From the NCBI GenBank assembly GCA_031272885.1, contig JAISSX010000053.1, forward strand, positions 1-53,429: DNA of 53,429 nucleotides, given 5' to 3'. The notes beneath the pieces were generated by a model. The model ran no database searches. It saw nothing but the letters and a program-made list of their open reading frames with translations, and had not been told where the DNA came from. Below are positions 6,312 through 30,914 of the stretch, one piece after another (position 1 is the first letter of the stretch; each line of letters begins with the position of its first letter). The translations under genes and the position numbers were made by a program. This stretch comes from Bifidobacteriaceae bacterium (GTDB lineage Bacteria > Actinomycetota > Actinomycetes > Actinomycetales > WQXJ01).

Positions 6312-6338
6312 TTAGCACTCTCCGCTTGAGAGTGACAA
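6312..6338. promoter_or_regulatory. CIRCE operator 2 (HrcA site) before groEL
   Basis: TTAGCACTC, nine bases, then GAGTGACAA. The left half is a perfect CIRCE half-site and the right half differs at two positions. The centre lies 36 bp from operator 1, roughly three and a half helical turns, so two HrcA dimers could bind on nearby faces. Confidence 0.85.
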
Positions 6339-18675: not shown

Positions 18676-18762
18676 ATGGCCGTTGTCACCATCGAAGACG
18701 TTGCGAGCGAGGCCGGCGTCAGCCCCACCACCGTGTCGCACGTTTTCAGCGGTCACCGGCCG
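18676..18762 (+). pseudogene. Truncated LacI-family regulator (5' fragment only)
   Basis: The first 29 codons encode the LacI-type helix-turn-helix (VTIEDVASEAGVSPTTVSHVF followed by SGHRP in the expected place). The recognition helix is intact, but homology stops abruptly at about 18762. The rest of the frame, about 95 codons to 19047, looks like random high-GC translation, and no hinge or sugar-binding domain follows. The junction abuts a transposase fragment on the opposite strand, so an insertion followed by deletion is the simplest explanation. The fragment alone is unlikely to act as a repressor. Confidence 0.75.
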
Positions 18763-18826
18763 GGGCGCAGCTTGTCCTGTCAAACGCTTCCAGAATCTCC
18801 ATTGCTTCTATGCCGTTCTTCTTCAT
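18746..18826 (-). mobile_element. Transposase 5' fragment (IS21/IstA-like N-terminus)
   Basis: On the minus strand an ATG at 18826 with a GAGGG ribosome site opens a 26-codon frame whose first 20 residues (MKKNGIEAMEILEAFDRTSC) resemble the start of actinobacterial IS21-type transposases. It then runs into the reverse complement of the lacI fragment and stops. Only the 5' end of the element remains. The sequence at 18827-18900, with the doubled GAGGGACAC/GGAGGGACACGC motif, may be part of its terminal region. Family assignment is from memory of the N-terminal pattern only. Confidence 0.45.
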
Positions 18827-18971
18827 GTGTCCCTCACGGGGAACTCGTCACGGTCAACATCAACCCGACGATTACCCGGAGGGACACGCATGTTTCAGCC
18901 GACACGCCGCCGGCCAGGACAAGACAGCGAGATCACGGTGACCGTCGACACCGGTTTGACGTTGTGGTGGT

Positions 18972-20429
18972 TCACCGCCGGATTAGGTCGTGCATGGTGA
19001 CGGTCCGCTGGAAGACTCCCGCGTGTCTGCCTGGGGCCAGGCCATAGGTGGTGACCAGTGTGAGGTGCAAGGCCTTTCGGGTGCCGGTCTGCTGTCGGAA
19101 CGTTTCGACCTTGGTGCGCAGTGCCCGTTCGGTCGCCGCGTCGACCTGGAACTCACCTTCGGTGTACTTCATTTCGCACAGGTTGATGACGCCATCGGCC
19201 CGGTCGATCACTAAGTCGACCTGAGCGCCGGGAGTATCACGAGGACGGCCGCGCCACCCAGAGACATCGGCCACCACGCCGGCCACGCCCAGGGCTTGAC
19301 GGATCTGTTGGGCATGAGCCAGGCAGACCTGTTCGAAGGCCAGACCGCTCCAGGCCCGCTGCCTGCCGTGATCGGCCGATTGGCTCCAGTAGCCTGCCGA
19401 ATGGCCGGCCTCCATGAATCGCAGATGGAAGGCGGTGAACGGGTCGGTCAACTGCCACAAGCCGCCATTGCGATGCCGGCCGTAGGGCCGGTAGTGCCGC
19501 AGGAAGCCGGACTGCTCCAACTCTTGGAGCACCTTGGTGAGGCTGCCGCCATCGGGGAAACTGATCTTGCCGGCCAAGTCCTCGCGAGTGATGCCCTGCT
19601 GGAGGCCCGCAAGAACCCGCACCACCTCTTGGTGGCGGCCGGGATGGGCAAATAAGGTGGAGAAGAGTTGGTTGAACTCCTGACCTAGCGGCGCAGTGTC
19701 ACCGAAGCACAGGGCGTCCACGTTGAGGGCCAGGCTCAGCCGAGGGTCAAGCAGCCTCAGGTAGTAGGGGATACCGCCGAAGATCATGTAGCCGCGCACC
19801 ATGTCATGCAGGCTCCAAACGATGCCGCGGGCATCGTAGTAGTCACGGCATTCGGCCAAGGTGAAGGGTTGAAGAGGGATTTGGCGGGTGACGCGGTTGT
19901 AGAGGCCGCCCTTGTTGCGGAACACCTTCTGGGTCAGCCAACTGGCGGCCGAGCCGCAGGCGATCAAGGTCAGGTTGCCCACTCCGCTGGCCCAACCGTT
20001 CCAGAAGTGCTCAAAGGCAGGGAGAAAGTCTGACTTTTTGGAGTCCATCCACGGCATCTCGTCGATGAACACCACGGCCGGGCTGGATCGGTCGGCTTGT
20101 TCGATCAGTTGGCGCAGGGCGGCGAAGGCATCGAACCAGTTGTTGACCGGCCCGGTGCCGGGCCAGCCCTGGGCGCGTAGGGCCTTGGTGAATTCGGCCA
20201 ACTGTGCCGGTCCCTTGAGGTTGGCGGCACCTGTGTAGGTGAAGACGGCCGTGTCGCCCAGTACCTGCCGCACCAGATAGGTCTTGCCGACCCGACGGCG
20301 GCCGTACAGCACCACGAATTCGGCCTCCGGACTGCCGATGGCGTCCGCCAGGAGGCGCCGTTCATGGTGGCGGCCAACGAAGAAGGGGGCCGTGTCCTTA
20401 TCCTGCGGAAACTGCGTCCGTGTTGCCAT
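18972..20429 (-). CDS. Archaeal-type AAA ATPase (COG1672-like, DUF234 C-terminus)
   Basis: The 485-residue protein starts at the ATG at 20429. It has Walker A GRRRVGKTYLV at about residue 45, Walker B VVFIDEMPWMD, and a sensor segment LIACGSAASWL. A winged-helix middle region follows (ITREDLAGKISF, LQELEQSGFLRHY), then a C-terminal nuclease-like DUF234 region with VDLVIDRADGVINLCEMKY (the D...E-x-K pattern of PD-(D/E)XK folds). Such ATPases are common accessory genes whose function is unproven. A perfect 10-bp inverted repeat flanks its start codon, with further copies upstream. It sits beside transposase and lacI remnants, which points to acquisition by transfer. Confidence 0.85.
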   Translation of the reverse strand: MATRTQFPQDKDTAPFFVGRHHERRLLADAIGSPEAEFVVLYGRRRVGKTYLVRQVLGDTAVFTYTGAANLKGPAQLAEFTKALRAQGWPGTGPVNNWFDAFAALRQLIEQADRSSPAVVFIDEMPWMDSKKSDFLPAFEHFWNGWASGVGNLTLIACGSAASWLTQKVFRNKGGLYNRVTRQIPLQPFTLAECRDYYDARGIVWSLHDMVRGYMIFGGIPYYLRLLDPRLSLALNVDALCFGDTAPLGQEFNQLFSTLFAHPGRHQEVVRVLAGLQQGITREDLAGKISFPDGGSLTKVLQELEQSGFLRHYRPYGRHRNGGLWQLTDPFTAFHLRFMEAGHSAGYWSQSADHGRQRAWSGLAFEQVCLAHAQQIRQALGVAGVVADVSGWRGRPRDTPGAQVDLVIDRADGVINLCEMKYTEGEFQVDAATERALRTKVETFRQQTGTRKALHLTLVTTYGLAPGRHAGVFQRTVTMHDLIRR

Positions 20430-20439
20430 GTTTCCGCAG
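20403..20439. repeat. Inverted repeat flanking the ATPase start codon
   Basis: CTGCGGAAAC (20403-20412) and GTTTCCGCAG (20430-20439) are perfect complements around 17 bases containing the ATG at 20429. In the mRNA this would place the start codon in or at the edge of a hairpin loop. The inner copy encodes residues around QFPQ of the ATPase. Confidence 0.75.
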
Positions 20440-20562
20440 TTTACCCTGAATGGGTCTGGCGGCGCTAGGGGAGCGTGAACAGCTAGAACATGCCGCAGAT
20501 GGGGTTGTCTCCCCAGTTTAAACTGCGGAAACTGGGGTAGGCGACCCGATTTTCCGCAGTTT
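20431..20562. repeat. TTTCCGCAGTTT repeat family upstream of the ATPase
   Basis: Full copies of TTTCCGCAGTTT lie at 20431-20442 and 20551-20562, with the inverse, AAACTGCGGAAA, at 20520-20531. Nested around the middle copy is a second inverted repeat, CCCCAGTTT (20511-20519) and AAACTGGGG (20529-20537). The motif is specific to this locus within the window. The rest of the 314-base gap 20430-20743 shows no gene; it is probably the ATPase promoter region plus the 5' region of the next gene. Confidence 0.75.
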
Positions 20563-20743
20563 TTATCCCCCCAACCTGGCGGGGCCACACAACAGAACGG
20601 ATTGCGCCTTGCGCGGAGGATTTCACCTGGCTCGGGGCGTTAGGGCGGGGCGGTTCACGGGTGGCTGAAACCCGGCTGCGGCCGGGCCGCTGGAAGCCTA
20701 GGCTGGCGCCGTTCCAGACCACCCCAAAGCCGAGGATTGTGAC

Positions 20744-21406
20744 ATGACCCAGCCATGGCCACGCGGACAAACGCCATCTCAGCAACAGGAGCCGGCAATG
20801 CCGGCCTGGGCGCCACCACTGGTGGATCAACCGGCCAAACGCCGGCGCTCGGCCAAGATCGTGGCCGGTGTCGTTTGCGGGGCAATGGTGGCAATTCTCG
20901 GTGGCATGGGCGTTGGCGCCATGGTTGACCAGGCTGTGCACCGGGCAGGGGTGCCCGCCCCGCCACCCGCGACCGATGGCGAACTGGTGGGTACGCCAGA
21001 GGTGGGCTACATCCGCTTGCCGGCCAAATGGAAGAAGGTGGTGAAACAGCAGGAAGGGACCTTGAAGGACAACAACCGCGCCCAGGCCACCTATGCCAAC
21101 CCGGCCCGATCAGAGTCGGTTTTCCTTCAAACCATCAACGGGGATGTCTTCGATGACGAAGTGACGTCCACCCTGATGATGCTCTGGGGCGTGAAGGGGG
21201 CCACCGACGTTGAAGCCAAGAACGCCGAGGTGGACGGCCTGCACGCCTGGAAGGTCGATGTCACCTACCCCGACCACCTGCAGCAGACGTGGCTGTTCGA
21301 TGACGACGCCGGCCGGGGCCACATTGTCACCCTGGAGGCGCGCCGCGACAGCTCCGACGTGTTCGGCACCATTCGCACATTCACCCTGGACAACCCACAG
21401 GCCTGA
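20744..21406 (+). CDS. Membrane-anchored protein of unknown function
   Basis: The 220-residue protein has a Gln/Pro-rich cytoplasmic N-terminus (about 1-40), a single hydrophobic segment after KRRRSAK (about 46-68), and an extracytoplasmic domain of about 140 residues. That domain begins GYIRLPAKWKKV and contains a strand-rich pattern ending IRTFTLDN. It looks like a small secreted beta-rich domain, similar in style to proteins of unknown function in other Gram-positive bacteria, but I do not recognise the family. It sits alone between the two AAA ATPase genes in the same patch of accessory genes. The ATG at 20744 has no strong ribosome site. Confidence 0.6.
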   Translation: MTQPWPRGQTPSQQQEPAMPAWAPPLVDQPAKRRRSAKIVAGVVCGAMVAILGGMGVGAMVDQAVHRAGVPAPPPATDGELVGTPEVGYIRLPAKWKKVVKQQEGTLKDNNRAQATYANPARSESVFLQTINGDVFDDEVTSTLMMLWGVKGATDVEAKNAEVDGLHAWKVDVTYPDHLQQTWLFDDDAGRGHIVTLEARRDSSDVFGTIRTFTLDNPQA

Positions 21407-21457
21407 CCCCAACCCACCCAGTGGCCCGTCGGCGGCTCGCCAGGACCCGGCGCGACT

Positions 21458-21540
21458 GTGTGAAAGTGGCATCGGGGTCCGTGTGAAAGTGGCATCGAGA
21501 CCTGTGTGAGAGTAGCATCAAGGCATGGGTGAGAGTGGGA
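21458..21540 (+). repeat. 23-bp tandem repeat array running into the second ATPase gene
   Basis: Copies start at 21458 and 21481 (both GTGTGAAAGTGGCATCG), at 21504 (GTGTGAGAGTAGCATCA) and about 21527 (GGGTGAGAGTGGGAATG). The period is about 23 bp and the last, more diverged, copy overlaps the ATG at 21525 and encodes the first residues (GESG). The copies replace the usual ribosome-binding region. Confidence 0.8.
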
Positions 21541-22787
21541 ATGCGCAGGTAAACATTTACACGGAGCGCCTCATTGACACCCGCCTGGCCGCGGCTTTGT
21601 CGGAGCTAAGCGCGATCATGTTGGTTGGTCCAAGAGCCAGCGGCAAGACAACCACGGCCCGACGTCATGTGGCTAGTGTGGTGTGCCTGGACCGCGCGGC
21701 CGAGGCGGGGGCATTCGAGGCTGATCCGGATGCGGCGCTACGGCGCCTGCCGGAACCAATTCTGCTTGATGAATGGCAAGAAGTGCCTGGCGTGCTAGGG
21801 GCGGTCAAGCGGGCAGTGGATGCCGACGCCAGACCTGGGCGCTTCATCTTGACCGGGTCGGTGCGGGCGGAGGTCGAAGGCGCAACTTGGCCGGCTACTG
21901 GAAGGGTGGTGCGCTGGCCGGTTTTTCCGTTGACAAGGCGAGAGATCGAGGGCCGAGTTGGCAGGCCAACCCTGATTGAACGGCTCTACCAAGGCGATTT
22001 GGAGGCCTTTCGCCCGGCTGAGGGTCAATTCGACTTGGGTGACTACATCGACCTGGCCTTGGTTGGAGGTTTCCCAGGGGCCGCCTTGCGCTTGGCCGGC
22101 GAAGCGCGCCGACTCTGGCTGGCAGGCTACCTCGATGAGGTGGTTCACCGGGACACTCAGTTGGTCATGAAGGGGATCGACACCAAGCGGTTTGCCACCT
22201 TCTTAGAAGTTGAGGCCTGGGGCAGTGCTGCAGTCACCGACGCTAAGAAGCTGATCGATGCGGCCCATTTGGACAGGCGAACGTTCGACGCCTACGAGGA
22301 GTTGCTGAAGCGGTTGCACTTGGGTGAATCGGTGCCGGGGTGGTGGAGCAGCCGGCTCACCCGATTGGTGGGGGCAGAGAAGCGCTATCTGGTTGACACG
22401 TCGCTGGTCGCGACCCTGCTTAACGTCGAGGTTGCCGGGGTGATGAAGGACGCGGCGATACTAGGGCGGATTCTCGATAGTTTCGTGGCCATGCAGTTGA
22501 GGCCCGAGGTCGCCCTTTCCGGCCACCGACCCAAGCTGTATCACCTACGGCAGCAAGAAGGCCGCCACGAGGTTGACCTGGTGATCGAGTTCGGCGGTGG
22601 CAAGGTAGCCGCCATTGAGGTCAAGGCTACGGCTGCTCCGGCGGCCGATGACGCCAGGCACCTGGCTTGGCTACGCGACCGCCTGGGTGACCAATTCGTC
22701 CTGGGCCTGGTGTTGCACACTGGTCCCCAGGATTTCGTCCTAGGGGACCGGTTGGTGGCGGCGCCCATATCCACGTTGTGGAACTAG
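21525..22787 (+). CDS. AAA ATPase with DUF4143 C-terminal domain (COG1373-like)
   Basis: The 420-residue protein has an N-terminal AAA domain with Walker A VGPRASGKTTTARR at about residues 34-47, Walker B ILLDEWQEVPG, and a sensor segment FILTGSVRAEV. A C-terminal DUF4143 region follows with the PD-(D/E)XK-like pattern HEVDLVIEFGGGKVAAIEVKA. It is related in architecture, though not closely in sequence, to the minus-strand ATPase 1.1 kb away. These ATPases occur in many copies per genome in diverse bacteria and are often called accessory or defence-associated, but a defined activity is lacking. The tandem repeat overlapping the start codon suggests autoregulation or self-targeting. Confidence 0.88.
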   Translation: MGESGNAQVNIYTERLIDTRLAAALSELSAIMLVGPRASGKTTTARRHVASVVCLDRAAEAGAFEADPDAALRRLPEPILLDEWQEVPGVLGAVKRAVDADARPGRFILTGSVRAEVEGATWPATGRVVRWPVFPLTRREIEGRVGRPTLIERLYQGDLEAFRPAEGQFDLGDYIDLALVGGFPGAALRLAGEARRLWLAGYLDEVVHRDTQLVMKGIDTKRFATFLEVEAWGSAAVTDAKKLIDAAHLDRRTFDAYEELLKRLHLGESVPGWWSSRLTRLVGAEKRYLVDTSLVATLLNVEVAGVMKDAAILGRILDSFVAMQLRPEVALSGHRPKLYHLRQQEGRHEVDLVIEFGGGKVAAIEVKATAAPAADDARHLAWLRDRLGDQFVLGLVLHTGPQDFVLGDRLVAAPISTLWN

Positions 22788-22874: not shown

Positions 22875-23023
22875 GCCGTCGTGGCTGTCCATCGCCACGC
22901 CACCCGCAGATTGGACCTGTGGCCGGCCCCTGCTCCCAACTGTTCTTCACGGGCGGCGGGAATTGGGCGGCGGCCGGGCCGGGGGAGTCTTCGGCTTCGG
23001 CGCCTTCTCACTGGAAACCCCCA

Positions 23024-30862: not shown

Positions 30863-30914
30863 GGCTAGGAGGCTTCGGCTAGGAGGCTTCGGCTACGAGG
30901 CTTCGGCTAGGAGG
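30863..30914. repeat. 14-bp tandem repeat at the aminotransferase 3' end
   Basis: GGCTAGGAGGCTTC begins at 30863, 30877 and 30891 (one base differs), and about 30905 (partial). The last copies lie inside the end of the aminotransferase gene and supply its stop codon; the first ones lie beyond it. The period is not a multiple of three. Confidence 0.8.

Follow-up and report, generated by a model that had tools for sequence, protein, structure and literature searches.

Private repeat arrays at the starts of putatively mobile AAA-winged helix-nuclease genes and their predicted role in negative autoregulation

Plasmid iterons are directly repeated sites, spaced by about two helical turns, to which the element's own protein binds, and phage repressors likewise have element-specific operator sets. 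Private repeats were found at the starts of two ATPase-nuclease genes, here called ATPase 1 and ATPase 2, in contig JAISSX010000053.1 of a Bifidobacteriaceae bacterium (assembly GCA_031272885.1); the whole stretch of 53,429 nucleotides analysed is referred to as the window. The likeness to phage operators and iterons lies in the element-specific operator sets, whereas the ATPase units lack a lytic module, a replication origin and a partner gene and possess private letters for dozens of paralogues within one genome. The two genes belong to PDC-S27 (COG1672) and PDC-S01 (DUF4143/COG1373), single-gene phage-defence candidates of PADLOC that are so far unvalidated (PMC12988326). In the 2026 survey, the fusion of an ATPase to PD-(D/E)XK was described as very common and patchily distributed (PMC12988326); PDC-S01 was reported to rank fourth in abundance among the putative prokaryotic defence families, and PDC-S27 occurs often as well. 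The window proteins match both models strongly, and the start-proximal private arrays are a feature added in this work: in the open-access literature no prior account was found, for the PDC-S01 and PDC-S27 families, of such arrays, of their fixed spacing or of host-gene flanking repeats. The units are read here as mobile AAA-winged helix-turn-helix (wHTH)-nuclease genes under negative autoregulation through a private operator array, with a probability of about 0.68. The features concerned are as follows.

18972-20429, minus strand: ATPase 1, AAA+ / wHTH / PD-(D/E)XK, 485 aa, COG1672-like, PADLOC PDC-S27
20403-20439, no strand assigned: ATPase 1 proximal dyad, CTGCGGAAA at 20403-20411 (+) and 20431-20439 (-), start codon 20427-20429 inside
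20523-20559, no strand assigned: ATPase 1 distal dyad, CTGCGGAAA at 20523-20531 (+) and 20551-20559 (-)
21458-21549, plus strand: ATPase 2 array, GTGTGAAAGTGGCATCGGGGTCC-type units at 21458, 21481 and 21504 and a degenerate fourth at 21527, period 23 bp (Tandem Repeats Finder)
21525-22787, plus strand: ATPase 2, AAA_14 / wHTH / DUF4143 (PD-(D/E)XK), 420 aa, PADLOC PDC-S01

The four CTGCGGAAA half-sites of ATPase 1 are offset by 28 bp in both dyads. This sequence occurs five times in the whole window, compared with 0.41 expected, and none of 100 shuffles reached five. The ATG of ATPase 2 (21525-21527) falls within its tandem array, in which TAGCAT at 21513-21518 was noted by eye as a possible -10 element. 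Scans of the whole assembly (2.95 Mb) showed that the three copies of GTGTGARAGTRGCATC in the ATPase 2 array were the only ones in the genome when up to two mismatches were allowed, and that the three exact copies of AAACTGCGGAAA at ATPase 1 were likewise the only ones. An earlier description of this DNA, made from the letters alone (the sequence-only reading), had stated that a repeat overlaps the start codon of each gene. This is literally so for ATPase 1 and ATPase 2; among 83 relatives, whose start codons were picked by rule, the array stopped a median of 22 nt short of the start, and it overlapped the start codon in 8 %.

The start region of ATPase 1 appears to be under constraint. An orthologue with 89 % identity (L228/L239) lies in another genomic context, and the alignment is limited to the gene and its start region. 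Within the upstream part, 27 of 27 half-site bases were identical, compared with 61 of 144 (42 %) other aligned bases (p 2e-9).

Both proteins carry the nuclease motif, in agreement with the nuclease-like segments that the sequence-only reading had seen in them. The open reading frame (ORF) of ATPase 1 runs from 20429 to 18972, with its ATG at 20429-20427. The protein was matched to AAA_16/ATPase_2 in Pfam and over its full length to the PADLOC model PDC-S27 (E 4e-177); its AlphaFold2 model had a mean predicted local distance difference test score (pLDDT) of 88.7, the ATPase and nuclease residues are present, and D405, E419 and K421 are conserved. Its nearest named relative is from a Bifidobacteriaceae metagenome-assembled genome (89 %). 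The ATPase part of ATPase 1 also gave a weak, low-scoring profile match to SSO1545 and Walker-type archaeal AAA+ ATPases (e.g. PDB 2qen), a likeness by profile only. ATPase 2 matched DUF4143 (1.9e-25) and AAA_14 in Pfam and PDC-S01 over its full length (1.3e-100, PADLOC), and possesses intact Walker A/B and PD-(D/E)XK residues, with D351, E365 and K367 conserved. Its AlphaFold2 model (pLDDT 94.3) contains a predicted wHTH at 220-270, made up of helices 220-232, 240-247 and 251-263 and a strand at 267-270. The Walker and nuclease residues were near-invariant among 188 relatives. A single architecture is common to both ATPase families, as the profile-profile alignment spans AAA+, winged helix and PD-(D/E)XK (probability 95 %, E 3e-8). 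A PHROGs search gave no match.

Start-proximal repeats were widespread in both families. Among 120 DUF4143 genes from the host family, a lag-23 self-match (10 of 12) was found in 66 %, lag 46 in 47 % and lag 69 in 24 %, and in a subset of 60 genes lag 23 was found in 63 % compared with 0 of 85 neighbouring control genes. Strong inverted repeats were present in 56 % of 80 COG1672 relatives and in 4 % of 92 controls. Such repeats are thus not peculiar to this patch but the rule of both ATPase families, and the enrichment over other genes on which the sequence-only reading had made its idea depend is borne out by the same counts. The motifs are private. DUF4143 paralogues of about 30 % identity in the host genome carry different arrays (GACTTGCAGAAACCCGGTTACAT at L005, CGTTTGCCAGAGTGAACAAGCTC at L006, and others at L002 and L003), and a further paralogue (L004) has an inverted pair in place of a tandem array. 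COG1672 half-sites are private as well, as exemplified by L245, with GATGCGAA at -176, -146, -13 and +17.

Further afield, the 21 genes of a complete genome from another family showed lags of 23, 32/33 and about 40, and a 22/23-, 32/33- or 43-bp repeat or dyad was present in 53 of 67 genes (79 %) of other phyla (Bacteroidota, Firmicutes, Verrucomicrobiota and related groups, Gammaproteobacteria and Coriobacteriia) compared with 4 of a small set of 20 controls. The ATPase genes were chromosomal in most genomes searched. Among relatives carried on plasmids, 22-23-bp repeats were seen in Mycobacterium, Agrobacterium, Rhizobium, Salipiger, Novosphingobium, Thermus, Spartinivicinus and Collinsella, and a palindrome at those of Granulicella and Allochromatium and at a second Thermus gene, the weaker cases being judged by eye; inspection of the start region of the plasmid-borne relative in Runella revealed no clear repeat. 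DUF4143 copy number was very high in some genomes (G017, G179, G175 and G166), with 39 matches in a 2.6-Mb genome and 37 in a 4.2-Mb genome. At L060 (G017:C3:15000-25000), one 22-bp array lies between two divergently transcribed DUF4143 genes and is common to both.

That such repeats arise by chance, from base composition or through a shared host regulator is scarcely credible. Tandem repeats do occur in controls (5 of 85 at a score of >=14.5), but lag 23 occurred in none of the 85, the rule also holds in AT-rich phyla, and the ATPase 1 motif is conserved against its background; chance and composition were ruled out by the control genes and shuffles. A shared host regulator does not fit because the motifs are private. 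An ordinary autorepressor with a single operator, of the TetR type, was also rejected, as lag 23 was found in 0 of 27 TetR genes from the same genomes compared with 66 % of DUF4143 genes.

The spacing class (tandem 23, tandem 33 or inverted) tracked the protein tree, with 20 changes compared with a mean of 62 (minimum 56) for shuffled labels. About one helical turn separates each of the spacings 23, 33 and 43 from the next, and bound protomers would therefore share one face of the DNA. The letters diverge fast, and many pairs of genes whose proteins are 60-70 % identical already differ; the closest sampled relative of ATPase 2, L102 (53 % identical), has GCGTGAAAATGGTACTGAACCC where ATPase 2 has GTGTGAAAGTGGCATCGAGACC. 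Motifs were nevertheless more alike the more alike the proteins were, a trend confined to the gene strand (Mantel p<=0.002), which bears out the suggestion that motif and protein co-vary. When corrected for overall identity, the protein-motif correlation was strongest across the winged-helix region, its wing included, and peaked again in the nuclease domain. Once clades were controlled for, residue 250, which opens the recognition helix, paired with motif column 11: Arg or Lys mostly went with G, and Asp with C. The top pairs of a first mutual-information analysis (motif columns 16 and 18) were clade signal and were dropped after that control.

Of the three roles that the sequence-only reading had proposed for the repeats (autoregulatory site, cis marker limiting mobility or immunity address), the autoregulatory site fits best. 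In its favour are the uniqueness of the motifs, their enrichment, the clade-fixed geometry, the rise of motif similarity with protein similarity, the conservation at ATPase 1, the one-sided position at the start and the presence of a winged helix in the model. A unit would be gene-sized and horizontally moving: a single polypeptide combines the AAA+ ATPase, the winged helix and the PD-(D/E)XK nuclease, and the unit brings its own operator. The winged helix would bind the private repeats, roughly one protomer to each 23 bp of a tandem array and pairs on the dyads of the COG1672 type, and the bound protein would cover the promoter or start and thus limit its own expression. Private letters would prevent cross-regulation among coexisting paralogues (up to 39 per genome), and a unit entering a cell without its own protein would be expressed freely until the product filled the array. 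We infer in this way DNA binding, repression, the winged helix as reader, a role for ATP, a nuclease held in check on the array and an antiviral role.

Several observations weigh against autoregulation. The genome-wide uniqueness scan covered one genome, and no sigma-70-type promoter was recognised at the start of ATPase 1 or ATPase 2. At the thresholds used, 64 of 254 DUF4143 genes fell outside every geometry class. With clades controlled for, specificity was concentrated in the winged helix to a modest degree (7 of the 20 top pairs compared with 3.4 expected, p=0.04), and arrays, which reach up to about ten units, look excessive at that length for simple repression. Control of each gene by its own protein, through binding and repression, is itself a prediction.

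The nuclease and the long arrays suggest more than repression, and for this reason a second explanation was retained, although it is unlikely. The array could mark the unit's own DNA as an identity tag, with a parked ATPase-nuclease that is triggered or directed when the array is competed for or lost, for instance when foreign DNA invades or the same unit is present twice; phage homoimmunity and plasmid incompatibility offer an analogy. In a form that is just as doubtful, unvalidated antiviral ATPase-nucleases would distinguish their own DNA from that of rivals, or would detect an invasion, via the occupancy of a per-gene address, and hundreds of mutually distinct addresses would then share a few fixed geometries. 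The near-invariance of nuclease and ATPase residues would fit such a role, as would arrays that often exceed the length needed for repression and the standing of family members as phage-defence candidates. The motifs of same-genome paralogues also tended to differ more at equal protein identity, weakly (p 0.02-0.10). In an Argonaute-containing Thermus strain, the AAA_14/DUF4143 gene TT_P0211 was up 6.6-fold in the presence of a plasmid (PMC4406477), a rise that may bear on regulation. Against this, the start position is already accounted for by autoregulation.

Whichever role they serve, the arrays may supply a candidate DNA ligand for almost every PDC-S01 and PDC-S27 member. They are a simple annotation feature and a concrete hypothesis of self-control, and the hundreds of natural protein-motif pairs are a source for learning a recognition code.

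The surroundings of the units bear on their mobility. Direct repeats flanked 80 of 270 units (~30 %) when 1 kb upstream was compared with 1 kb downstream, but only 4 of 269 shuffled pairs. The flanking repeats measured ~30 to 650 bp and were host sequence, not motif. In several cases the repeat was the 3' end of a host gene, stopping within a few bases of the gene end: a thiolase (L138), a LuxR-type regulator (L110), a CarA-looking class-I glutamine amidotransferase (L164), a xylose-isomerase-like gene (L239) and tRNA-Met (L133); in all five the host gene was left intact. Such 3' ends at the unit borders point to a route by which the genes spread. When the flanks were joined in silico, in most cases no single long ORF resulted, because the repeats sit at gene ends. 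The insertion site of L239 (serC-isomerase) was not found in the host genome, so that no empty site was shown. Restriction-modification units inserted with long target duplication (cited in PMC3154945) resemble the present ones as units of a nuclease gene between long direct host repeats, whereas the ATPase units are without a methyltransferase and consist of a single gene with its own operator array.

It is quite improbable that the repeats serve as ends through which the ATPase-nuclease mobilises the gene encoding it. The flanking direct repeats, the use of host-gene 3' ends in some of them, the presence of the ATPase 1 orthologue at another locus and the recurrence of the COG1672 motif downstream in 23 of 70 genes compared with 5 shuffled would agree with it. 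The DUF4143 array, however, sits within the unit and only upstream of the gene, recurring downstream in 1 of 80 genes, the flanking repeats are of variable length and host-derived, and the window's own genes have no clear flanking repeat. A transposon with the motif as terminal repeats is not supported by the same counts for motifs at both ends (1/80 and 23/70). A cis marker in the sense of a transposon end is not supported for DUF4143 genes, although the units do look mobile. The sequence-only interpretation as a whole is partly supported. Five relatives of ATPase 1 (L291, L317, L295, L278 and L312) have a near-exact second operator block of 35-120 bp just 3' of the gene.

Around ATPase 2 and the protein of no known family upstream of it (20744-22787), there is a weak direct repeat of 59 bp (75 %). 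A 51-bp direct repeat (75 %) with copies at 20654-20704 and 22946-22996, which brackets the same two genes, may be the worn trace of an insertion or a chance likeness. The protein in question lies between the two units.

20744-21406, plus strand: 220-aa protein with one hydrophobic stretch, by eye

It had no Pfam or NCBIfam match, and nothing ties it to either ATPase unit. On the other side of ATPase 1, right after a major facilitator superfamily (MFS) gene, the start of a LacI-type regulator was identified at 18676-18760, of which 23 N-terminal residues match Pfam before unrelated sequence follows. It is probably a truncated gene, judged from these residues, and agrees with the regulator debris mentioned in the earlier description; the region beyond the MFS gene in a sister genome contained no LacI.

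Two further repeats were seen elsewhere in the window. A tandem array of GGCTAGGAGGCTTC at 30863-30914 (3.7 copies, 94 % matches) lies in front of a predicted ORF, with no ATPase nearby. At 6312-6334, a CIRCE-like element (TTAGCACTC-N9-GAGTG), arranged in two copies, is presumably a heat-shock (HrcA) operator.
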